IMG/VR virus record: IMGVR_UViG_3300009081_000035
Location: 1-28,711 of that record
DNA from: a virus
DNA length: 28,711 nucleotides
Reading direction: 5' to 3' (one strand)
Positions 6,370 to 25,657 of this stretch are shown in pieces; the stretch's first letter is position 1; each line of letters begins with the position of its first letter. Under the pieces are notes generated by a model, which was not told where the DNA came from, ran no database searches, and worked only from the letters and a program-made list of their open reading frames with translations. The position numbers and the translations under genes are program-made.

Positions 6370-6452
6370 TAGTTTTGCTTATAATCTTCGGGGTCTTAAT
6401 ATTTTTTATTAAGGTTGAAATGAGCGAAGATGATTATTATAATTATTTTTAA
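6366..6452 (+). CDS. 28-residue membrane microprotein
   Basis: A short ORF starts at an ATG that overlaps the stop of the deoxyribosyltransferase-like gene (ATGA at 6366-6369) and ends four bases before the ATG of the PP-loop gene. It encodes an N-terminal hydrophobic helix of about 17 residues (IVLLIIFGVLIFFI) followed by Lys, Val, Glu and an acidic, Tyr-rich tail (SEDDYYNYF). This is the shape of a single-pass membrane microprotein with its acidic tail outside the bilayer. The ATGA coupling and close spacing argue that it is translated. It could be a membrane anchor or regulator for its neighbours, but the ORF is short enough that a chance occurrence is not excluded. Confidence 0.5.
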   Translation: MIVLLIIFGVLIFFIKVEMSEDDYYNYF

Positions 6453-6456
6453 AGAA

Positions 6457-7269
6457 ATGAAAACAGTAAACTCAATTTCGGGAGGAAAGACATCTGCCTA
6501 TATGGCAAAGCATTTCCCAACAGACTATAATGTATTTTCCTTGGTGAAGATTGAGGCTGAATATTGCAGACCCAAAGACAAGGGTATTGTTGATTACGTT
6601 TCCGAGAAGTTAGGAGAGGACTTTATAGCAACAGCAGAAAGCGACAAGACTCTATATGTTGTTCGTGACTTAGAGCAGATAATTGGCAAGGAGATAAAGT
6701 GGCTTTCGGGAGAGTCGTTTGAGGCCGTTATAAGAAGGAAGAAGGCACTACCAAACATGATGTGGAGGTTCTGTACCACAGAGATGAAAATGAAGCCTAT
6801 ATTCGAGTTTTGTAGAAACCACATTGACGATGTTGTTGATATGCAGATAGGTTTTAGATACGACGAGAAGGAGAGGGCTAACAGAGAGAATAAAACATTC
6901 AAAGCAATAGTTGGCCAAAGCCCTAACGGAAGAAACAAATGGAAAGAGATTCACTGGCGAGAGTTGAGTTACCCGCTTATAGACAATAAGGTATTTCACT
7001 TTAATGTGGCAGATTGGGCTAAGTCAACATCGTTAGAGTTCCCTGCGGATAGCAACTGCGTAGGTTGCTTTTGGAAGCCATTTCAGCAGTTGAGAAAGAA
7101 TTGGGAAGATGAACCATTAAAGATGCGTTGGTTCTCGGATATGGAGAAGCTGATGAAAAGGAAGTTTAAAAAAGAAATGACATACGAAAAGGTAAAAGGA
7201 ATAGGGTTGCAGTCAGACTTTTTCTTTGGTACTGGTTCGGGGTGTCAGGCAGGTTTCTGTACGGATTAA
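6457..7269 (+). CDS. PP-loop ATPase, PAPS-reductase-like family
   Basis: Encodes 270 residues from the ATG at 6457; an upstream in-frame ATG at 6430 would only add a run of isoleucines that overlaps the microprotein. The adenine-nucleotide alpha-hydrolase P-loop SGGKTS is at residues 8-13. A WRFCTTEMKMKP segment near residue 105 matches the R-x-C-T...K..P element shared by phage PAPS-reductase-like and DndC-like proteins. Further cysteines, CVGC near residue 204 and C-x(4)-C at the extreme C-terminus, could bind an Fe-S cluster or zinc. The ECG-x-H catalytic motif of true PAPS reductase is not present, so sulfur activation for tRNA or DNA, or another adenylation, is more likely than sulfate reduction. 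GC is near the phage average, unlike its AT-rich neighbour. Confidence 0.7.
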   Translation: MKTVNSISGGKTSAYMAKHFPTDYNVFSLVKIEAEYCRPKDKGIVDYVSEKLGEDFIATAESDKTLYVVRDLEQIIGKEIKWLSGESFEAVIRRKKALPNMMWRFCTTEMKMKPIFEFCRNHIDDVVDMQIGFRYDEKERANRENKTFKAIVGQSPNGRNKWKEIHWRELSYPLIDNKVFHFNVADWAKSTSLEFPADSNCVGCFWKPFQQLRKNWEDEPLKMRWFSDMEKLMKRKFKKEMTYEKVKGIGLQSDFFFGTGSGCQAGFCTD

Positions 7270-7314: not shown

Positions 7315-8085
7315 ATGCAATCGAAAATCAAACCACAAGACCACGAGTTCTTTGAACTAATGGAAAAAGGAGGAGGCACTTTCCACTTCGCAACGTACTA
7401 CACTCCAGCAGGTGAGTTAAGGGGTATCAAAATCGGAGAGGACAAGAACGGCCAAACTATCTACAAGCGTTTCTCTTTAGACAAGGAAAACAAGATGCGC
7501 ATTCACAAGGCTAACAAGGTAGAGTTAGAGTTCATTACGAACCACCCTAATAACCCTGACAGCCCTTATTTTAATGGCATTGCACGTTTCCGTAAGTATG
7601 CCCCTGAAAAGCAAGACCGCCAAGCTATTGACATTGAGGTAGCAAAGGCAGCAGCAGTAACAGAGGCAGGTAACTTGAAAGGTACACGCTTGTTTGAAAT
7701 CGCAGCATTGCTTGGTATGTTCTACGATGAAACTCCCGAAGGAGAGATTTCTGCATTACGTGCTGTAATCGGAGTAGCTGTAAGTGACCCTTCGCATTTC
7801 TTAAAGGTATTCAATACCCCACGCAAGGAAAGCAAGGTACGTCGTGTTATCAAAGCAGCTATCCATGAAGGAGTTATTACAAGGGACAACGGAGTGTACC
7901 GCTTTGGTAGTGTTACCTTGGGTATTGACGAGGATGGAGTAGTTGGTAAGCTGACAGCAGAAGAGGACTTGTTTACTTTGGTAGAACGTCGTGTTGGCTT
8001 GAGTGAGGAGAAAGAGGTAGCTGCAAAGGTGGAAGCACCTAAGTCAGAGTTGCCACCCAAGCAGAAAGCAGTAGCAGGTAAGTAA
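7315..8085 (+). CDS. Protein of unknown function with a winged-helix-like C-terminal part
   Basis: Encodes 256-257 residues from ATG 7315; an in-frame ATG at 7276 lies over the possible promoter and gives an implausible hydrophobic start, so 7315 is preferred. Residues 1-95 look like a beta-rich domain (FFELMEKGGGTFHFATYYT...GIKIGEDKNG). Residues about 165-200 (KVRRVIKAAIHEGVITRDNGVYRFGSVTLG) have the helix plus beta-hairpin layout of a winged helix. The C-terminus is Lys/Glu/Ala/Pro-rich and probably disordered. The gene lies between the metabolic trio and the cassette region and ends 23 bases before a terminator. DNA binding or a role in head completion are both possible; the family is not recognised. 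Confidence 0.6.
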   Translation: MQSKIKPQDHEFFELMEKGGGTFHFATYYTPAGELRGIKIGEDKNGQTIYKRFSLDKENKMRIHKANKVELEFITNHPNNPDSPYFNGIARFRKYAPEKQDRQAIDIEVAKAAAVTEAGNLKGTRLFEIAALLGMFYDETPEGEISALRAVIGVAVSDPSHFLKVFNTPRKESKVRRVIKAAIHEGVITRDNGVYRFGSVTLGIDEDGVVGKLTAEEDLFTLVERRVGLSEEKEVAAKVEAPKSELPPKQKAVAGK

Positions 8086-8108
8086 ATTAAATTTAGGTTA
8101 AAGTTGAG

Positions 8109-8137
8109 AGTCCGTGGTGAAAGCTACGGACTTTTTT
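8109..8137 (+). terminator. Rho-independent terminator
   Basis: AGTCCGT (8109-8115) pairs with ACGGACT (8126-8132), extended inside by one G-T and one G-C pair, followed by TTTTTT. It closes the 257-residue gene's transcript and marks the left edge of the cassette region. Confidence 0.85.
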
Positions 8138-8139
8138 AT

Positions 8140-8147
8140 TATGTTTG
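8140..8147 (+). promoter_or_regulatory. Possible -7 promoter box driving the cassette region
   Basis: TATGTTTG matches TAnnTTTG exactly and lies directly after the terminator and 74 bases before the first cassette gene. There is no clear -33 element. If real, it would act like the external Pc promoter that integron cassettes need, since the cassette genes show no strong promoters of their own. Confidence 0.35.
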
Positions 8148-8149
8148 TT

Positions 8150-8206
8150 GACGACGTTTTGCAGATAAGCGAAGGCAAAGATTTAGAAACGAAAATTTTA
8201 ACTTAA
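8150..8206 (+). repeat. Degenerate left half of an attC-like site
   Basis: The segment from 8168 (AGCGAAGGCAAAGATTTAGAA) resembles the left arm of the long attC-like site at 8827 (GCCGAAGGCAGGGCTTTAG...), sharing 17 of the first 23 positions. No matching right arm or GTTAGGT core follows before gene 1. It may be a remnant of a site whose right half was lost when the array entered or was trimmed. Confidence 0.4.
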
Positions 8207-8220
8207 AAACAGAATATATT

Positions 8221-8481
8221 ATGAAAACGAGAACATCAACTTACCACAGACACTTTGCTTTTGCTTATGTGCTGTTAGTAGCTGTTATTTTTTGTGGTTG
8301 CGGAAGTAATAATTCCGAACAACAAAAAGAACCACTGAATAAGGTTCAAGAAATTGAATACGGCAGAATACAAGTTTTAATAACAGACAGTTGCGAATAT
8401 GTTGTTTGGAATTACTCCTCTGCAGGTGGCATTGTTCATAAGCAGAACTGTAAATTTTGTGCAGAACGTAGCAAAAAATAA
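8221..8481 (+). CDS. Cassette 1: small predicted lipoprotein
   Basis: Encodes 86 residues. The N-terminus has basic residues (KTRTSTYHRH), a hydrophobic stretch FAYVLLVAVIF, then CGCGSNNSEQQ, which looks like a Bacteroidota lipoprotein signal with modification at Cys25 or Cys27 followed by a polar tether. The mature part ends with a Cys-x-x-Cys pair in a basic tail (QNCKFCAERSKK), which could bind a metal or be redox active. Its stop codon is immediately followed by the first attC-like site, typical of cassette genes. A phage-encoded surface lipoprotein could change the infected host's envelope, for example to exclude other phages, but that is only inference. No family is known to me with certainty. 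Confidence 0.6.
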   Translation: MKTRTSTYHRHFAFAYVLLVAVIFCGCGSNNSEQQKEPLNKVQEIEYGRIQVLITDSCEYVVWNYSSAGGIVHKQNCKFCAERSKK

Positions 8482-8516
8482 TTGCCTATAACGGAACGAT
8501 TATTTGCGTTAGGTGG
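8482..8516 (+). other. attC-like site 1 (short or truncated)
   Basis: CCTATAACG (8485-8493) can pair with CGTTAGG (8507-8513) with a two-base bulge, and the right side gives the core GTTAGGT (8508-8514). The site begins directly after the stop codon of gene 1. At about 35 bases it is shorter than usual attC sites, so the inner L-box arms may be lost. A second small hairpin, GGTGG/CCACC, overlaps its right edge (8513-8531). Confidence 0.5.
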
Positions 8517-8561
8517 GGAATTACACCACCAAAGATTATTAACAGCACTAAATTTAAAAAT

Positions 8562-8798
8562 ATGCAAGAAGATTCTAAAAAGCACGAAACCCCCACTGAC
8601 GCAAATAATGTGTTAGCGGATAGTTTGCCGATTGATGTAGAAAAATATCCTTATTACGGAATATGTGGTAAATGTGGAAACTACCGAAACAAACTTGACA
8701 AAGACTGCTTATGTCAAACTTGCTACCAATTCGGAGTAAGAAAATTAGGTGGAATGATACCTGATGAAATCTTCAAGTTTGTTAAACCGAGATTTTAG
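8562..8798 (+). CDS. Cassette 2: small zinc-ribbon protein
   Basis: Encodes 78 residues. After a polar, probably disordered N-terminus (SKKHETPTDANN) there is a compact domain with four cysteines as two CxxC knuckles: YYGICGKCGNY and CLCQTCYQF (a fifth cysteine is adjacent), spaced about 15 residues apart. This is the zinc-ribbon pattern used for nucleic-acid or protein binding. The start is preceded by the 15-base string AAATTTAAAAATATG, which recurs at the start of cassette 3. The gene lies between the two attC-like sites and ends nine bases before the second one. Role unknown. Confidence 0.6.
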   Translation: MQEDSKKHETPTDANNVLADSLPIDVEKYPYYGICGKCGNYRNKLDKDCLCQTCYQFGVRKLGGMIPDEIFKFVKPRF

Positions 8799-8806
8799 GC
8801 AAATTT

Positions 8807-8941
8807 CCGCTAACGGTTCGGGTATTGCCGAAGGCAGGGCTTTAGAAGCAGAATGTTTAAACCTTGCACAAATGCTCAATAGGAGTAAAAACGATTAATA
8901 AACCGAGAATGCCCTGCTTTTGGCAATACCTTGTTAGGTGC
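8807..8941 (+). other. attC-like site 2 (long, with a 20-base paired stem)
   Basis: Left arm GGTATTGCCGAAGGCAGGGC (8821-8840) pairs with right arm GCCCTGCTTTTGGCAATACC (8911-8930): 18 Watson-Crick and two G-T pairs. Outside lies a second pair, CTAAC (8810-8814) with GTTAG (8933-8937), separated from the stem by GGTTCG on one side and TT on the other, like the unpaired spacer between R and L boxes in attC. The right end is GTTAGGTGC; GTTAGGT fits the core consensus GTTRRRY. The loop is about 70 bases, giving a 135-base site, similar in size to long attC sites such as Vibrio repeats. Confidence 0.65.
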
Positions 8942-8966
8942 AGTGCTTCTTACAAAATTTAAAAAT

Positions 8967-9173
8967 ATGGGAACATTAAAAGAAGTAAACGCAAGACGAA
9001 AATTGATAAAAGAAACGATTGGAAAAGTAGAAAAGATATTAAATGTGAGCAATGGTCACTGGAACAATATGCTTAAGACATATCAATTTGAATTTGGAGA
9101 AAAATTTTATATTGAAAACATTTATCTTTCAGAAAAAGCTATGTTACATATTGTTTCACAGCATTGCACCTAA
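8967..9173 (+). CDS. Cassette 3: small basic protein, unknown function
   Basis: Encodes 68 residues from ATG 8967; an in-frame TTG at 8931 lies inside the attC-like core and is rejected as start. The protein is helical and basic at the N-terminus (KEVNARRKLIKETIGKVEKIL), with a Trp-Asn-Asn segment and a YQFEFGEKFYIENIYLSE beta-like part. No motif is recognised. The start codon sits in the same 15-base leader as cassette 2. The stop codon TAA lies inside the core sequence CACCTAAC, an arrangement seen in integron cassettes where the attC start overlaps the gene end. One sampled 60-base line has only 28% GC, the lowest in this area. Confidence 0.55.
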   Translation: MGTLKEVNARRKLIKETIGKVEKILNVSNGHWNNMLKTYQFEFGEKFYIENIYLSEKAMLHIVSQHCT

Positions 9174-9174
9174 C
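9160..9174 (+). repeat. Complementary core (R''-like) at the end of cassette 3
   Basis: AGCATTGCACCTAAC is the inverse of GTTAGGTGCAGTGCT at 8933-8947 in 14 of 15 positions, so cassette 3 is framed by inverted repeats. ACCTAAC fits the R'' consensus RYYYAAC, but no right half of a third attC follows: the array appears cut here. Confidence 0.55.
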
Positions 9175-9269
9175 TCTCTGCTTGGCGCATCTTTTATGCG
9201 CCTATACACCAAAGTAATCTTTTGCGAACAGTACCACTTTTCGGTACTTTGCGCTTACAATAACTTAGA
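9175..9269 (+). other. Intergenic stretch with two small hairpins
   Basis: GGCGCAT (9184-9190) pairs perfectly with ATGCGCC (9196-9202), and AGTACC (9230-9235) with GGTACT (9243-9248). Neither has a T-run typical of a terminator. An ORF can be read through part of this stretch but overlaps cassette 3 in another frame and shows no protein-like features. This is probably original phage sequence to the right of the array. Confidence 0.45.
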
Positions 9270-9301
9270 GGCAACCTATTAATGGTTGCCCTTGTTATTT
9301 C
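9270..9301 (+). terminator. Stem-loop of the GGCAACC/GGTTGCC family (copy 2)
   Basis: GGCAACC (9270-9276) pairs with GGTTGCC (9284-9290) over the loop TATTAAT, followed by CTTGTTATTTC. It ends 18 bases before the connector gene at 9319. Confidence 0.7.
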
Positions 9302-9318
9302 AAGAGTAACGTAAAGCA

Positions 9319-10002
9319 ATGACAGCAGCACAGTTTGAAGCAGCATTTGATTTGATATGTGATAAGGTAGGTAGTCCTTACTTCTCTGCTGCGGAGAAAG
9401 AGAACTTCATCAATCGGTCGCAAACAAGTCTATTAGATGAATGCCTATTCCCTAAGCGCAGAAACCAAGACAAGAAGGATGCAGACGTATATGGCTTTGA
9501 TAACCAAACAGCCTCTATGCAAGCCTTGCAGCCATTGATTAAGTATTCTGCTGTTGCATTAGCCACTTCTAATACTGTTTCGATTGCTACATTGGAAACT
9601 GCTGCTACCGCTTCTGTTTACAGAGTAATGGGAGTATTGCTTCCCGAAGATGTACTTGGCGCAGTTCCACAATACCAAGCAAGGTATGTTCCTTCTATAA
9701 AGACATCAAGCGGTGTTTATGCGGGATTACGCTTCGGCAATCCTTCAAGCGTGAAAACGGGCATATACTCTATTGAGGGCAGGACGATTAATTTCTTACC
9801 AGCCATTACAGTAAATAACGTGGCAGGTGTAGAGTTCATCAAAGTACCTGCTACATTCAGCATATCGGGTAACGTTACTTGCGAGTTAGACCAATCTGTT
9901 CACAACGAGATATTGTTCCGTGCTTTGCAGTTATCGGGTATATCCATTAGAGAGGACTTCTTCTACCAAGCAATGAACTTAGAACAACAAAAGGAGGCTT
10001 AA
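9319..10002 (+). CDS. Head-tail connector (ring/adaptor) protein 1
   Basis: Encodes 227 residues. It follows the capsid-side genes and precedes a second protein of similar size and the stabilization-like gene, the usual place of adaptor/ring proteins that dock under the portal in podoviruses. The N-terminus is helical (AAQFEAAFDLICDKVGSPYFSAAEKENFINRSQ), and the middle is a beta-rich region of Val, Ala, Thr and Gly, with a short helical C-terminus (NLEQQKEA), a layout common for such adaptors. The gene starts 18 bases after a family stem-loop and is separated by three bases from the next gene, so it probably heads a three-gene operon. The specific ring number cannot be given from sequence alone. 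Confidence 0.55.
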   Translation: MTAAQFEAAFDLICDKVGSPYFSAAEKENFINRSQTSLLDECLFPKRRNQDKKDADVYGFDNQTASMQALQPLIKYSAVALATSNTVSIATLETAATASVYRVMGVLLPEDVLGAVPQYQARYVPSIKTSSGVYAGLRFGNPSSVKTGIYSIEGRTINFLPAITVNNVAGVEFIKVPATFSISGNVTCELDQSVHNEILFRALQLSGISIREDFFYQAMNLEQQKEA

Positions 10003-18439: not shown

Positions 18440-21400
18440 ATGAACGAACAAGCAATACAAGACGCATACGCTTTATTCAGTCAATCAGGGTATAAGAAAT
18501 CTATTGGCGAGTTTAAGACTCTTTTAGGAAGCAACCCACAAGCATTGAAGGATGCTTATGATTTATTCGCTTCTAACGGATACCAAAAGTCTATTGATGA
18601 CTTCTCTTCGTTAATGGGAGTAGTAAAAAAAAAAGAACCTACTCAATCGGTTTCTCGACCAATTGGTTCGACTTCTCCATCTCCGTTAAGCTTAAATGAA
18701 CAGTTAGCGCAAGCACCTGCATTACCGAAAGATGCAAGGGTAGAAGTGCCTATTGGTTCTACACAGCAGCCACAGCAAGACCGTGCAATTACAGCAACCC
18801 CTGCACGCACACCTCTTCAAGTTTCTCCTAAAGAGATAAAGGCTAATCAATCTAAGATTGAAGGAAAGCTTAATGAGTTTTCTATTGAGGAGTTTAACAA
18901 GTCTACTGAATCCTTAAAGCAGAAAGAAGTTATGCTTGAGTCACTTGCCAACAAAGCAAACGCAGGTGATAAAAACGCAGAGGCAGAATACAGAAAGCTG
19001 TATGGCTCTTACGAAAAGGAAATCGAAGCATTAACTCCAAAAATCAATGAATACAACTCCTTGCTTCAACAATACCAACAATTAGAAGAACAAGGTAAAT
19101 CAGGTATAGTAGTTGGTGATGAACTGCAAGAGGAGAAAAGAAACACTTACAGAAGAGAGGGGCTAAACCTATTCACCGATGCAATAGAAAGGGGTATGCT
19201 TGCGGGCGAACAAGCAGACTTACTAAATGCCTTTCAGAATATGGAAGATGCAGATGTAGCAAGGCTTTCTGAAATACAAGAAGAGAGAGAGAGATTTGTT
19301 GGTTCGGAAGATTACCAAAGACTCGGAGAGATGGGCTTTGTGGAGTTCCTTAAAGCAGCACCATTAACAGCCATTGGAGAAGTTGTGACTGAAAGCCTTG
19401 CAGCAATGATTAGGCATGGCTACGCAAGGGCAGGTGCAGGTGCAGCAATGGGCGCAACAGCAGGTAGCGTTATCCCAGTGGTTGGTACAGCAGCAGGTGC
19501 AGGTTCGGGCTTCATGGCGGGTATGGGTGCAGCAAGTTTAAACTTAGAGTATAGTTCCAAGTTTATAGAAACACTCGCAGAGGCAGGTATTGACGTTAAG
19601 GATGCTGATGCCTTAAAGGCTGCATTTAACGACGAGGAAATGACAGACAAGGCAAGGAATATTGCTTTGCGCAAGGGTATCCCTATTGCTGTATTTGATT
19701 TGATTTCGGGAGGCGTTGCAGGTAAGTTTGCTGCAAAGGCAGGAAGCAAGGCATTACCAAAAGTTATTGCGGGTGTAAAAGAAGGTGCTACTCAAGCGGC
19801 ATTTGGTGGCGGTGGAGAACTTGCAGGGCAGTTGGTTGCGGGTGAAGAAATAAACCCCGTTAGTATATTGCTTGAGATGGTAGCAGAACCCTTTACGTCT
19901 ATTCCCGAAGTAGCCGTTGGCGTTATCGTAAGAAACGCAAAGGGAGGCAAGCAAACAGCACCTAACGTAATAGCTGAATTGGTTACAGCACCCGATGTTG
20001 ATTTAGAAAGCGTTTCTGAAATGCTTGATGTATCTGTTGGATTAGGAGAGATAACTCCCGAACAAAAGGATGCTGTATTGCAGGATATAGAGAGGATGTC
20101 TGCTGCTGCTGAAAAAGTACCACAGAGGTATTCTGAAAAGGCTGTTGAATTAGCCCCTCTGATATTCGAGAAGTCTAAGTTAGACGAGGGTATTGCAGCC
20201 CTTGAGGTAGAGAAAGCCAAGGCAGACGATGCTTTGGTAGGCGGTATTGACGAACAGATTGCAGAACTTAACCAACAGAAAGAAGCTATAAATGGACAAA
20301 TCCAATCAATTATTACTCCAAGTGAGGCTACAACAAATCAAGAGGCTGGAACAGCAGTTAGAGAAGATGAAGCAGGAGTTGGAATTGATGGAGATGGAGT
20401 ACAGGAAGTTGGTAATGCAGATGTACAACAAGTAGCTTCTGATTTCTTTGGATATAGGGTACAGCAAATATCGTCAGACCTTGACTCAAGAATGCAGAAT
20501 GCAGATGAAATTGACATCAACGAGATAGAGTCCGTTTCAGAGGACTTGATAGGATTAAGCGATAGCATATCAAAGAATAAAACTATTCCTGAAAGCACAA
20601 AGAAGTCGCTATTAGAAGCAATAGAAGCCAAGGTAAACGAATTATTGAATTATGAATTTGCAACAACTAACGAAACTGAAACAGTTGCCGAAAGAGCAAC
20701 AACTAAAAGTATTATCCCTACTCCGAGAGAAGGGGTACGCCAAACAGTCAGCAAAGAAAGATTTGCAGACGCAGAAGTAATGTCAAAGGGAACGAAAGGC
20801 AAGATACAAAAGAATGGAAATTTCTTTGACCTTGTTTTCGGTAACACAAAGATTCCTATTGACTGGAACTTCATAGAGTTTGTCGAGTCAAAGCTAAACG
20901 AAAATGGCGACTTGTCGGTGACTCTATTGGATTCAAGAAGCGGAACTGAATTTGCTATAACTGATAACGAGTTGGCACTTGACGTTGCCATATCCGAAAG
21001 CCAAAAGCAAATAGGTGTAGTGCCTGATGGTACTTTCGACCAAGTTGTTTCGGAAGTAGTAAACGAAAAGAAGGTAACAAATAAAAAACTGATAAATGAA
21101 AAAGCAAAAGAACCCTTGTTGGGAAAACTACAAAATGATAGGGAACAAAATGAAAGACGGGAAGAAAGTGCCCCGATGCGTCCCGAAAAAAGGAAGCGGA
21201 ATTGGTCAGAAAGGGGTGAAATAGTATCTGAATCGTGGTCTGATAAAGACTTGGCATCTGAAATCGTATCGTACAGATATTCCGATTCTCCTTCTAAAAT
21301 TGAAAGCGATAGATATAGCAAGATAAGCGATGAGTTTAAGAATAGAGGATATTCTCTTAATGACGCAGATGCAGTTAGTAGTGGGAATAAAGTAGAAAAA

Positions 21401-24400
21401 GTAGGAGGTAAAGATGCCGATGCGAAGCCAAGCGCAGAGAAAGTATCTGTGGGCAAACAATCCGAAGGTAGCAAGGAAGTTCGAGAACAAGACACCAAAG
21501 GGCAAGAAGCTGCCAAAAAGAGTACAGAAAAAGCCAAAAGCAAGTTAGAACAAGCAAGAGAAAAGCGTAAGGCTGCTATTGAAAAGCTAAAGCAGAACAT
21601 CGACAAGGCTAAGAATGTTGGTATTGCTTCTTTGGACTTCAATCAAAGGATGAAGGACGACAAGGAGTTCTTTGGTGCTATCAAAGACATTATTGAGTCT
21701 AACGTAGAGATTGGCATTACAAAGATTAGCGAGATATATGCAGAGATTGCTGACATCGTAGGCAAGTCTTTGTCCGTAACCGATAAGGCAGAAGTTAAAA
21801 AGATATTCAACCAAGTAGTGCTGAAAGAACTCCGTTCAGAGCAGCTTGAAAGATTTGAAGCAGAGTCAGTAAGAGATGCCATGAAAGAGTATCTTAACGA
21901 AAACAAGAAGGCACTTAACAGTGCTGCTAATGCGCAAGCATTGAAAATGGTTAACGCTGCTCAAACAGAGTCGTCTTTCATTGCTGCTATTAAGTACCTC
22001 GATAAGATAATAGGCGATAAAGAAACAAGAGATGCCTACAATGCTGCTTCCGAAGCCATAGACAAAGCAAAGAAGAAAGCGGATACATTGGCAGGTACTC
22101 AAGAAGTTAAGGGGTACTTGCAGAAGATAAACGCATTTGGCATCAAGGCATCTGAATTGCTAAAAGAGATTGCAGATGTGCTTGACCCAAGCAAGCCAAT
22201 GCCAAAGGCTGCAACCATTAAGGCACTTGCTGATAAGGTAATCAAGTACGTTGAGGAAAACATGAAGGGCAAGCAGCCTACTATCCCAGATGTCAGAAAG
22301 AGATTAGATAACTTGTTCCTCGAAAGAAAGAAGGACGAGAATGGTAACGTAATGCGTGACGATGATGGCAACCCAATCATGGTTGCTGCCACATTTGATA
22401 CTGCTGCCAAAGTCCGTGGGTTAATGAGAAGGGTTAGCAACATCAAGAACGATATTGCTAAGTTGGATATAACCATTGAAGAGCAAGAGGCATTTACGGA
22501 AGAGATTGATAAAGCCTTAGCAAAAATAGACGAGATTGCTAAAGAGGTAGGGGAGGCTATTCAAGAACAGAAAAAAGAAAACATCAAGAAGGCTAAGGAG
22601 ATAATATCTTCCTTGAGTGCCGATGATTTTGCAGACCCTGATATATATGAGGCAAATATACTGCCTATTATGAACAAGAAGGGTTCGATAGATTTGTTAG
22701 ACGAGTTGACCTACACTCAATCAGAAATGCTGTTAGACGCATTGGCAGACGTTGAGAATGGCTATTTACCCGTTGGCTTCTACCGAAACTTCACAGAACC
22801 ACTTGTGGGTAATGACAGAGTTAAGGCAGCATTGGAACTTGCAAAGAGTCCAACAGAGGGATTCTTGGCGAGTATATTAAAGTTTCGTTCAAAAGGAATG
22901 AATCAAGCACGTAAGTTGCTTTACGGATTCCAAGGGAAAGGGAAGTATCTTAGACCTAATAATATCTCTAAGTTTGATTTACGCAAGATGCTTGACGTTA
23001 CCTTTGCCGATAAGGTAGACAACCTATTTGGAAAGGGAAGAACAGAACCATTTAATAACAACTTTGTAATTCCATTAAAGCGTTCATTCGATAATATCTC
23101 AAGAAGCGTCACTGATATGTTCTACTTGTTCTCAAAAGAGTCAGGAATGAGTGTAAGTGATTTGCTTTTAATGAGAGGGGCAAATGAAACATCCCTAAAC
23201 AAAGTAGGTGCTTTTCTTTTGCAAAGAAGGATAGACAATGAGAGGGGCAGCAAAGGATGGAATGCCTTAAAGTATAATTCAGAGTATGCCGACAAGCAGA
23301 CCGATAAGGCAGTTCAGTCAGCAATAAGCGCATCACAAAAAAGCATTTGGGTTGAGTTAAATGATAAGTACCCTGATGGCATTAAGGAGTCAGACCTAAC
23401 TGCAAAAGAAAAGAAGTTAGTAGCTGCGTTTGATAGGGTTATAGGTATGCTTACTAAGATGCAGAAAATATCTAACCTTCGTGGAGGTAAAGTGTTTAAT
23501 GCAATAGAAGGGTATGCCCCTTTGCTTGCTATGGAAAACGTAATGGAAGCAAGCAGAACATTGGCAGAGGCTAACGACTTCACAAATGCTATGGAGATGT
23601 TAAGTCTGCGCTCTAATTCAGATAAGAACTCAAAGCCTAAGTATCGTTCCGATAGGGGTTTAAATTCAGACCCTAATTCGGGGCCATATATTGCTAATAC
23701 AAATGCCTCTACATTAATTGCCAATGCCATATCTCAAGTGGTTACGGAGTACTATATGCTTCCTATTATGTATTCAGCGAATAGGGCATTTACCTTAGCC
23801 AATCAAGAAAGCAAAGAGAATGTTGGTGACTACCTTAGAGATAGGTTTGCGGACATTATCAGAAACGAAAGACTTAGATTAAGGACTACTGCTGCAAAGA
23901 GAATTGGTAATTTATTGTCGGGCATTCAGTCAACTATATTATTGAATGTTCAACGATTCACTCCTGAATTCATTGGCGGTATGGTATTACACGCAAGGTA
24001 TGCCAAGATTAGAAACAGCCCTGCTAAGGCATCTGCTGCTTTTGCAGAGGCAGTTAAATCTTCTTTTGATGGTAGCTTTAGGAAGGCAGCGAACCTCGCT
24101 TTTGATGATGGCTTTAATCGGTTTGAAGAAATAGAAATAGGAAAGTCAGAAGAGTTTAAAAGGAGGGCAGGTAAGTTTGCAAAGACTTTAACATCCCCTG
24201 ACAGCTTGCAAGAAACAGCGTTCTCTCGTGCTGCATTTGTATTCTTTATGAAAGACAAGTACAAGGAGATAACAGGAAAGACTCTATCAATGTCTGACTT
24301 AAACGATGCAGAGTTCTTTAGAAAAAACAAAGATGCGCTAAAAGAATCATCTGACTTTGCATATAAAGAAGTTGTGGTAAAAGCAGATACACGATTTGGT

Positions 24401-25657
24401 AGGCCAGTAAGACCCGTATGGTACTTGCCATTGATTGATAGCACCAAAGGAGATTGGTCGCTAATGGGATATACCATGTCTTACTTTCTTAGTGGCTTTG
24501 CCATGAAGCAGGGTTCTAATCTTAGTGGGGATATGTACGATGCTTTGTACGGAGTGAATAAAGATAAAGGAGAGGCAGCAATAACAGCTTTAACTACTAT
24601 TGCTTCTGCATCTGCATATCAAGTTGCTAAGGGCGCACAAATGGCAGCATTAGGCGGTATATCTATTTTAGCTGCTGAATACCTTGCTGGTGATGATGAG
24701 GAGGAAAAGGAAAGGATTGTAAGAGAAGCCAAAGCATCAGTAGTTAGATTCACAAACGAAATGCTTAGTGCAAGGTTTATGACTGCTCAATTCATATCGG
24801 GATTCATGTACCTAATTACTGCAAATCAGGGCAGCATAGGAAAGCTAATGATTTACTTGACTGGCGACATCTTTATAGATAGGGCAAAAGAGTATTACAA
24901 GCAAACTGGTCAGTCTGAATTGGAGTTTATCAAAGAGGTAAAAGAACCCATTGAGAACCTTGTTAAGGATGCCACGTATAAGGAGATTGCCAATACAAGA
25001 AAAGATGGCTTGCTTAATACTTATAGTATTTTGGCAGGCGGTGGCGCAGTAGGAACAGAGGAGATTGCTAAATTATGGAACGCATCTCAAGGTGCTTTTG
25101 AAGGTGATGGTGGTGACGCAGTATATGCCTTGGGGACTATATGGAACATAGCATACGGAAGGAAAGTACCATTGCCTTTTACTCGATATATTGCAAAGGG
25201 ACTTAGAGAAAAAGATGTATCCCTTGAGAATGCCATTAGAAGGGCTAAGGCTGACAAGAGAAAAGAGGGAGAACTGATAGAACAGCTTGTATTAAAGCAT
25301 GGTTCAAGTTCTTTGGAAGGTAAAGTTAATGCAGACCAAGCGTTAAGTAATCTGTTTGAAGAGTCATTTAAACTAATGCCTGATAGGGATGCTGCCGAGT
25401 TGGAAAAGGAAATCCTTGACAAGTATGACGACCTAACCCTACCTGCCTTCATTAAAGGAATCAAGTCAAAGCAAACTAACAAAGAGAAAGGACTTGAGGC
25501 TGCTAAGTGGAGTATTAAGATTGAGGACATGGGTGACAGCAAGGAGGCTGTTGAAATGCGCATTAGTCTTTGGGATTACCTAAGTGGCATAAAAGAAAGT
25601 GATGATGATTTTTGGGACTTCTACTACAAGAAGATAGAAGAGGAGAATAAGAAATGA
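18440..25657 (+). CDS. Giant internal virion protein (2405 residues)
   Basis: Residues 5-30 and 35-60 are a tandem repeat (14 of 26 identical; pattern DAY-x-LF...GY-x-KSI...F..LLG). A Pro/Gln-rich linker follows; residues about 325-375 and 415-465 are Gly/Ala-rich hydrophobic stretches that could insert into membrane. Long charged coiled-coil segments follow (about 495-620 and 1015-1055, with many Lys/Glu), then a mixed helical domain to about 1950, and a C-terminal region with hydrophobic helices near 2045-2085 and 2110-2140. This resembles the giant cargo or polyvalent proteins of podoviruses injected with the genome; the C-terminal part may be a polyvalent-protein-associated domain. No RNA polymerase DxDGD motif or lysozyme/transglycosylase signature was recognised. 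It forms one unit with the preceding gene and the small HTH gene after it. Confidence 0.6.
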   Translation: MNEQAIQDAYALFSQSGYKKSIGEFKTLLGSNPQALKDAYDLFASNGYQKSIDDFSSLMGVVKKKEPTQSVSRPIGSTSPSPLSLNEQLAQAPALPKDARVEVPIGSTQQPQQDRAITATPARTPLQVSPKEIKANQSKIEGKLNEFSIEEFNKSTESLKQKEVMLESLANKANAGDKNAEAEYRKLYGSYEKEIEALTPKINEYNSLLQQYQQLEEQGKSGIVVGDELQEEKRNTYRREGLNLFTDAIERGMLAGEQADLLNAFQNMEDADVARLSEIQEERERFVGSEDYQRLGEMGFVEFLKAAPLTAIGEVVTESLAAMIRHGYARAGAGAAMGATAGSVIPVVGTAAGAGSGFMAGMGAASLNLEYSSKFIETLAEAGIDVKDADALKAAFNDEEMTDKARNIALRKGIPIAVFDLISGGVAGKFAAKAGSKALPKVIAGVKEGATQAAFGGGGELAGQLVAGEEINPVSILLEMVAEPFTSIPEVAVGVIVRNAKGGKQTAPNVIAELVTAPDVDLESVSEMLDVSVGLGEITPEQKDAVLQDIERMSAAAEKVPQRYSEKAVELAPLIFEKSKLDEGIAALEVEKAKADDALVGGIDEQIAELNQQKEAINGQIQSIITPSEATTNQEAGTAVREDEAGVGIDGDGVQEVGNADVQQVASDFFGYRVQQISSDLDSRMQNADEIDINEIESVSEDLIGLSDSISKNKTIPESTKKSLLEAIEAKVNELLNYEFATTNETETVAERATTKSIIPTPREGVRQTVSKERFADAEVMSKGTKGKIQKNGNFFDLVFGNTKIPIDWNFIEFVESKLNENGDLSVTLLDSRSGTEFAITDNELALDVAISESQKQIGVVPDGTFDQVVSEVVNEKKVTNKKLINEKAKEPLLGKLQNDREQNERREESAPMRPEKRKRNWSERGEIVSESWSDKDLASEIVSYRYSDSPSKIESDRYSKISDEFKNRGYSLNDADAVSSGNKVEKVGGKDADAKPSAEKVSVGKQSEGSKEVREQDTKGQEAAKKSTEKAKSKLEQAREKRKAAIEKLKQNIDKAKNVGIASLDFNQRMKDDKEFFGAIKDIIESNVEIGITKISEIYAEIADIVGKSLSVTDKAEVKKIFNQVVLKELRSEQLERFEAESVRDAMKEYLNENKKALNSAANAQALKMVNAAQTESSFIAAIKYLDKIIGDKETRDAYNAASEAIDKAKKKADTLAGTQEVKGYLQKINAFGIKASELLKEIADVLDPSKPMPKAATIKALADKVIKYVEENMKGKQPTIPDVRKRLDNLFLERKKDENGNVMRDDDGNPIMVAATFDTAAKVRGLMRRVSNIKNDIAKLDITIEEQEAFTEEIDKALAKIDEIAKEVGEAIQEQKKENIKKAKEIISSLSADDFADPDIYEANILPIMNKKGSIDLLDELTYTQSEMLLDALADVENGYLPVGFYRNFTEPLVGNDRVKAALELAKSPTEGFLASILKFRSKGMNQARKLLYGFQGKGKYLRPNNISKFDLRKMLDVTFADKVDNLFGKGRTEPFNNNFVIPLKRSFDNISRSVTDMFYLFSKESGMSVSDLLLMRGANETSLNKVGAFLLQRRIDNERGSKGWNALKYNSEYADKQTDKAVQSAISASQKSIWVELNDKYPDGIKESDLTAKEKKLVAAFDRVIGMLTKMQKISNLRGGKVFNAIEGYAPLLAMENVMEASRTLAEANDFTNAMEMLSLRSNSDKNSKPKYRSDRGLNSDPNSGPYIANTNASTLIANAISQVVTEYYMLPIMYSANRAFTLANQESKENVGDYLRDRFADIIRNERLRLRTTAAKRIGNLLSGIQSTILLNVQRFTPEFIGGMVLHARYAKIRNSPAKASAAFAEAVKSSFDGSFRKAANLAFDDGFNRFEEIEIGKSEEFKRRAGKFAKTLTSPDSLQETAFSRAAFVFFMKDKYKEITGKTLSMSDLNDAEFFRKNKDALKESSDFAYKEVVVKADTRFGRPVRPVWYLPLIDSTKGDWSLMGYTMSYFLSGFAMKQGSNLSGDMYDALYGVNKDKGEAAITALTTIASASAYQVAKGAQMAALGGISILAAEYLAGDDEEEKERIVREAKASVVRFTNEMLSARFMTAQFISGFMYLITANQGSIGKLMIYLTGDIFIDRAKEYYKQTGQSELEFIKEVKEPIENLVKDATYKEIANTRKDGLLNTYSILAGGGAVGTEEIAKLWNASQGAFEGDGGDAVYALGTIWNIAYGRKVPLPFTRYIAKGLREKDVSLENAIRRAKADKRKEGELIEQLVLKHGSSSLEGKVNADQALSNLFEESFKLMPDRDAAELEKEILDKYDDLTLPAFIKGIKSKQTNKEKGLEAAKWSIKIEDMGDSKEAVEMRISLWDYLSGIKESDDDFWDFYYKKIEEENKK
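18452..18619 (+). repeat. Tandem 30-residue repeat coding region in the giant gene
   Basis: Two copies (18452-18529 and 18542-18619) encode the motif DAY-x-LF-x(3)-GY-x-KSI-x(2)-F-x(2)-L, with a 30-residue period. The copies have diverged at the DNA level but keep the protein pattern, suggesting a selected binding module at the N-terminus. Confidence 0.65.

Follow-up and report, generated by a model that had tools for sequence, protein, structure and literature searches.

Three attC-like sites and their genes in a crAss-like phage contig point to an integron-like cassette system in Bacteroidota and their phages

Results

A low-GC insert between phage structural genes

The DNA analysed here, referred to as the window, is the whole of the 28.7-kb (28,711-nucleotide) IMG/VR virus contig IMGVR_UViG_3300009081_000035, a metagenomic record and probably a fragment. 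It encodes a portal protein, the end part of the large terminase subunit and a homologue of tail ring protein 3/4, and this set of genes (terminase, portal, ring proteins) places the record with the crAss-like phages (Crassvirales). The portal has relatives in crAss-like phages with only 21-24% identity over up to 88%; a search for the coat protein gave no match. Three small genes and three attC-like sites lie upstream of the ring 3/4-like gene, which is the first phage gene 3' of them (Table 1). A PAPS-reductase-like gene (phrog_424) is located near the array, at 6430-7269, and a member of this family forms a cassette, with a site on either side, in a different phage (L006, 233-1111). Farther along the window, an open reading frame for 2405 aa at 18440-25657 closes the plus strand module, and from about 25.9 kb onwards the genes are on the minus strand and the GC skew is reversed.

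Table 1. Features of the array and its flanks (window coordinates)
Feature	Position	Strand	Basis and remarks
Phage terminator-like hairpin with T-run, left flank	8105-8139	+	By eye
Three-cassette array proper	8156-9174	+	
attC-like site 1	8147-8283	+	R1 47.9 bits, E 6.7e-10; 17/20 stem, 8162-8181 with 8253-8272, read from sequence
Cassette unit 1 (site 1 and gene 1)	8156-8492	+	Starts after AC, ends with AAC
Cassette gene 1, 86 aa	8221-8481	+	ORF; lipoprotein-like signal (VIFC), C-terminal HKQNCKFC; no Pfam family
attC-like site 2	8484-8621	+	R1 75.1 bits, E 2.6e-16; 13/16 stem
Cassette unit 2 (site 2 and gene 2)	8493-8814	+	
Cassette gene 2, 78 aa, zinc-ribbon-like	8562-8798	+	ORF
attC-like site 3	8806-8942	+	R1 93.5 bits, E 1.3e-20; 23-nt stem, 87% complementary, inverted repeat I1
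Cassette unit 3 (site 3 and gene 3)	8815-9174	+	
Cassette gene 3, 68 aa, unknown	8967-9173	+	Read and translated; start ATG 8967; stop codon overlaps CTAAC box
Phage terminator-like GGCAACC..GGTTGCC repeat, right flank	about 9266-9300	+	By eye; resembles repeat at about 2848-2880
crAss-like tail ring protein 3/4	9319-10002	+	Pfam CrAss_Ring_3_4, E 5.8e-6, slightly short of cut-off

An earlier note on this DNA had described three small genes of low GC with attC-like sites between virion genes, and composition agrees with this: GC is 34.2% in the array and 41.9% elsewhere, and 2 of 554 sliding windows of equal size are as low. The same note leaned on the motif GTTAGGT, which is present where it was reported (plus strand at 8508 and 8933, minus strand at 9168), but only two of these three are real boxes, the copy at 8508 lying inside the stem of site 2. 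Counts of the motif carry little weight and were discarded, as the window has 12 where 6.5 are expected and 3 of 100 shuffles reach that number. A search for box-stem-box geometry that is independent of sequence found two sites in which 13 or more of the 16 positions pair and none elsewhere, where 0.05 are expected per shuffled window. No Rfam family scored above its gathering score at 8000-9400, and a search of IMG/VR with three proteins flanking the array gave no close relative with which an empty site could be compared.

Anatomy of the sites and their cassettes

The inverted repeats define a palindrome of about 125 nt, present in three copies, in which a TAAC box is followed after 6 nt by a stem, its loop and the returning stem, and after a further 2 nt by GTTAG. 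The earlier note had proposed a scan with an attC covariance model. We ran one with R1, a model made from an alignment of 43 bacterial elements from which the window and viral sequence were excluded, and it matched exactly three plus strand sites, the first of which had been overlooked in the earlier list; in the rest of the window nothing was found at E<0.01 except the reverse strand of the third site. When nhmmer was used in place of the covariance model, site 1 was missed and site 2 scored weakly. The left box of site 1 is replaced by phage sequence (GACGAC), and its right box, GTTAG, is at 8274; the right box of site 2 is GTTAGCGG at 8612, which is also the right-box consensus of the wider site family. 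With three R1 sites, no recombinase and phage genes around them, the locus has the make-up of a phage CALIN (two or more attC sites and no integrase, in a phage genome).

Two properties expected of integron sites give different answers here. Sites 2 and 3 fold as DNA (z -1.7 to -2.6), site 1 folding no better than shuffles, and in the conserved stem of R1 both partners have changed in 6 of the 16 pairs, as expected of the imperfect palindrome of an attC. The right boxes, by contrast with IntI-type boxes (GTTRRRY / RYYYAAC), read GTTAGTA, GTTAGCG and GTTAGGT, and one of the three fits GTTRRRY.

Two further corrections to the earlier note concern gene starts: gene 2 starts inside site 2 and gene 3 starts at ATG 8967. 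The loop of site 1 contains the start codon of gene 1, and that of site 2 contains a ribosome-binding-like stretch along with the start codon of gene 2, the first 19 residues of which are encoded within the site (leader MQEDSKKHETPTDANNVLA). A start codon in the loop of the upstream site is a property of several phage cassettes, these two included, and a near-identical leader, MQ(T/E)DSKKHxxPTDANNVLA, is found on other genes in L069, L071, L072/L074 and L073. Given the start codons in the sites and the recurring leader that they encode, the site may also serve as an expression module. The direction of the genes relative to the sites is in phages mostly opposite to that in bacterial arrays, and with this reversed polarity phage cassettes would be read along the phage operon. 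The products (lipoprotein-like, zinc-ribbon-like and unknown) are possible cargo affecting the host.

A site family in Bacteroidota

We scanned 84,980 prokaryote genomes with a search pattern based on site 3 and Empedobacter plasmids. It matched 66 contigs, by title practically all from Bacteroidota, Ignavibacteria or Chlorobi, and the 43 elements aligned for R1 were taken from these matches. In a sample of the Bacteroidota phylum, about a third of the genomes (70 of 198) have sites by R1 at E 1e-6 or better, and long same-strand arrays are found in Chryseobacterium, Pedobacter, Pelobium and others, including genomes G002, G008 and G014. The complete chromosome CP058707 (G020, contig 1) has at least 150 sites, all on one strand, between about 3.478 and 3.982 Mb, a span of some 500 kb. 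Throughout the phylum the family has a conserved loop sequence, unlike ordinary attC sites, whose loops are not known to be conserved.

For viruses, most matches to a first, loose pattern were due to chance and were discarded. We examined 38 viral records, of which the window is one; rescanning with R1 gave sites in 37, and several have them beside terminase, portal, polymerase or helicase genes. One 40.7-kb phage record (L069/L197, G232), which also encodes a terminase and a helicase, has two site arrays on opposite strands.

A recombinase at the arrays

No tyrosine recombinase is encoded in the window, as neither PF00589 nor TIGR02249 has a match in the 28.7 kb, and none of 30 host genomes has a match above the TIGR02249 cut-off for IntI. 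Many host genomes do encode a tyrosine recombinase, for which the best-scoring model is in most cases that of XerA (NF040815). The stretch that holds the IntI insertion (near patch III) is missing from the recombinases at related arrays, which lack profile positions of about 181-238; the corresponding part is 83 residues long in IntI4 and 35 in the phage protein. The array recombinases often carry an additional domain, KWS..WHxP, at the N-terminus. A tree of the recombinases that included IntI2 had long branches, and the branching order was not recovered.

These recombinases keep company with the arrays. The gene is near the right end of an array in G002, G008, G012, G014, G020 and others. Among genomes with many sites, 14 of 18 have a match of more than 250 bits; among those without, 3 of 18 do (P 0.0003). 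Five of the 38 viral records encode a tyrosine recombinase, and in all five the gene lies 568-1372 bp beyond the right end of the array on the same strand (chance placement product 2e-9). Against a role of this enzyme, the orientation of the gene varies among genomes, and G011 has a large array with no close recombinase of the XerA-like array type. Several bacterial recombinases are preceded by CTAAC, about 4 nt and then the stretch ATATACG.

Cassettes recur as whole units in other phage contigs

Copies of the first two cassettes in other viral contigs show where the units begin and end. For cassette 1 and its site, L173 contains a copy of 84% identity, and the homologue of gene 1 there is 81% identical; no homologue of gene 1 was found among annotated phages. 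On the left, L173 reads TTATAAC/GTTTTGCAG and the window GACGAC/GTTTTGCAG (the slash marks the breakpoint), so that the two diverge exactly at AC/GTTTTGC. As they part after AC, the left edge of the insert (8155/8156) falls on the box. On the right they part at TAAC, with ATTAAC/GTTAAGG in L173 and TATAAC/GGAACG in the window. The copy of cassette 2 and its site is in L075 (89% identity), with other neighbours on both sides; the left breakpoint is at ATAAC (CATAAC/GTTCCG in L075, TATAAC/GGAACG in the window) and the right one at CTAAC (CGCTAAC/GGTTCTCGG and CGCTAAC/GGTTCGGG, respectively). The phage contigs have thus reassorted whole units. If the array was inserted, the uninterrupted phage junction would have read TTGACGAC/TCTCTGC. 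The earlier note had set as the outcome against its reading that no attC hits be found and that the three genes be fixed core genes of related phages; instead, attC-type sites are there, and the cassettes occur elsewhere in other orders.

The ends of the cassettes tell the same story. The ends of unit 3, GTTAGGTGCAGTGCT at 8933-8947 and AGCATTGCACCTAAC at 9160-9174, are complementary at 14 of 15 positions, and they also surround other genes in L022, L049, L053 and L063. In 91 cassettes from 17 arrays, 6.0 of the 9 positions after the core match within a cassette; the figure is 3.1 for the two flanks of a site, and 500 shuffles gave no more than 3.7. Matching of the two ends within a cassette is the typical signature of cassettes that form circles by closure at the box, and the 3' box complementing the cassette's own 5' end is thus a property that these 91 cassettes have in common with IntI-type ones. 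Within the window, cassettes 2 and 3 fit this pattern and cassette 1 does so weakly.

Block differences among Polaribacter phage isolates

The annotated phages with the nearest recombinases are the Polaribacter phages Freya and Leef and the Cellulophaga phage Ingeline, all with reported integrases; the Freya genomes are 44.0-48.9 kb (Bartlau et al., PMC8776804). We compared five of ten Freya isolates from one host strain (Freya_1, 2, 5, 8 and 10). Freya_1 has no array and AAC alone between gene 66 and the integrase gene. Beside the integrase, Freya_2 has block A (its left side and block A were read), Freya_5 A and B, Freya_8 A and C, and Freya_10 A, B and C, with all junctions at AAC. Freya_8 and Freya_10 differ by exactly block B, in the middle of the array. 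The flanks, fetched for up to 2000 bases per side, are identical where compared (Freya_1, 5 and 8 against 10). The blocks, of about 0.8-3.2 kb with their genes included, are present or absent whole, and block A carries a site of the R1 family (E 6e-6). They abut a constant stretch, ACCCCTATAACAACAATAAG, beside the integrase gene. The isolates show precise gain or loss of cassettes beside this stretch, a candidate counterpart of attI; the CTAAC/ATATACG stretches before several bacterial recombinases resemble it.

Discussion

We think it very probable that the insert is a three-cassette array of an integron-like system of Bacteroidota and their phages, in which a XerA-like recombinase exchanges the units. 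The units, each made up of the palindromic site of about 125 nt and one gene, extend between successive TAAC boxes. The enzyme that exchanges them at the AAC (GTT) boxes is most likely a XerA-like tyrosine recombinase, which for the window would act in trans, its source being the host or another phage; the array of the window may have arrived by such a route. Where a genome has its own recombinase, new units would be inserted beside the recombinase gene. The substrate would be the folded single strands of the sites, as in integrons, and some sites would supply the ribosome-binding region and the start codon of the next gene. Part of this proposed chemistry is made plausible by earlier work on attC-type cassettes in virulent phages, in which one Polaribacter phage site was used by IntI1 (Qi et al. 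2023, PMC9892861), although R1 scores that phage, P12002L, weakly (E 0.011). That study also means that phage-borne cassettes as such, which the earlier note would have considered unusual in a structural module, were already reported.

The strongest rival, and an improbable one in our estimation, is that a phage picked up an ordinary IntI-type CALIN whose cassettes are moved by canonical IntI. Much of what we observe would be expected in that case: the sites are palindromic, the cores are GTTA, there is a single gene per cassette and the cassette ends are complementary, and phage CALINs, that of the Polaribacter phage included, have sites usable by IntI1 (Qi et al. 2023, PMC9892861). Our reasons for preferring another enzyme are that (i) only one right box in three fits GTTRRRY in full and the loop is conserved across the phylum; (ii) the 30 host genomes gave no match above the IntI cut-off; (iii) a survey with IntegronFinder 2.0 found Bacteroidetes almost free of integrons, with In0 elements and one complete integron only (PMC9024848); and (iv) the recombinases beside the arrays are without the IntI insertion. 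The earlier proposal of an integron-type array in a tailed-phage structural region stands, and the array has relatives on Bacteroidota chromosomes and in other phages, but it is not an ordinary integron, given boxes that in most cases keep GTTA/TAAC only, a conserved loop and a XerA-like recombinase beside such arrays.

It is very unlikely that the palindromes are REP- or MITE-like mobile repeats that spread between small genes which are not themselves cassettes. The sites are indeed better conserved than the intervening genes, and near-identical sites are found beside different genes. However, the complementarity joins the ends of the gene segment and not the flanks of the site, the copies of genes 1 and 2 elsewhere are accompanied by their sites, and the Freya blocks vary whole, genes included. 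An assembly chimera, with a bacterial cassette array wrongly joined to a phage contig, is slightly less likely still; the record is metagenomic and of 28.7 kb, but there are 37 other viral records with sites, several of them beside phage replication or packaging genes, the block variation is in sequenced isolates, and the genes of the window have the polarity of phage and not of bacterial cassettes. Least probable of all are ordinary small phage genes separated by terminators or RNA hairpins, as the sites share boxes, spacers and loops with chromosomal arrays of other orders, contain start codons, mark recombination breakpoints and have been reassorted, even if hairpins between short genes are common and attC sites are thought to hold weak terminators (PMC9892861).

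The integron-like system that we favor has much in common with integrons (IntI, attI and attC; classes 1-3 and sedentary chromosomal ones): cassettes bounded by palindromes, exchange at a GTT box, complementary cassette ends, long arrays of one orientation with a recombinase at one end, and insertion beside the recombinase. It differs in having a XerA-like recombinase without the IntI insertion, boxes that are mostly the GTTA/TAAC core only, a conserved loop, phage cassettes in reverse polarity and start codons that can sit in the site. Archaeal-type XerA (NF040815; PDB 4a8e, 5hxy) is the nearest sequence relative of most array recombinases (168-235 bits) and is known for the resolution of chromosome dimers, whereas the array recombinases adjoin cassettes and many have the N-terminal KWS..WHxP domain. 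Compared with the phage CALINs of Qi et al., the family that we describe extends across Bacteroidota, has a recombinase type of its own, varies by blocks among isolates and includes a crAss-like carrier; we found no description of a cassette array in crAss-like phages in the open-licence literature searched. On balance, we lean towards the view that Bacteroidota and their phages share a second integron-like platform of independent standing, with its own recombinase clade without the IntI insertion, its own site family, reversed phage cassettes and a site that gives a start codon and a leader fused to new genes. To judge from the same literature, such a Bacteroidota-wide system appears not to have been recognised before.

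If this is correct, Bacteroidota would have a large pool of mobile genes that has gone unrecognised and in which phages and drug-resistance plasmids take part, and a start codon placed within the recombination site would represent a new means of expressing captured genes. Cassette capture by phages is open to direct testing, as some phages have their own cassette recombinase and isolates of one phage differ only in cassette blocks. With regard to drug resistance, sites of the family are present on Empedobacter brevis plasmids NZ_CP043637.1 (L002, 1874-2011 and 2932-3068) and NZ_CP043636.1 (L001, 3995-4130), on one of which they are found between the resistance genes mphG, lnu(H) and arr; with family sites on resistance plasmids, the system may move drug resistance in Flavobacteriia. 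An array-type recombinase, 44-54% identical to a Chryseobacterium one, is encoded directly before tet(X3) on Acinetobacter plasmids (L212, 4052-4717; L213, 3890-4549), and R1 found no sites around tet(X3) there. A phage contig with an array and a recombinase (L172) has an adjoining gene for a GroEL-like chaperonin at 7385-9022.
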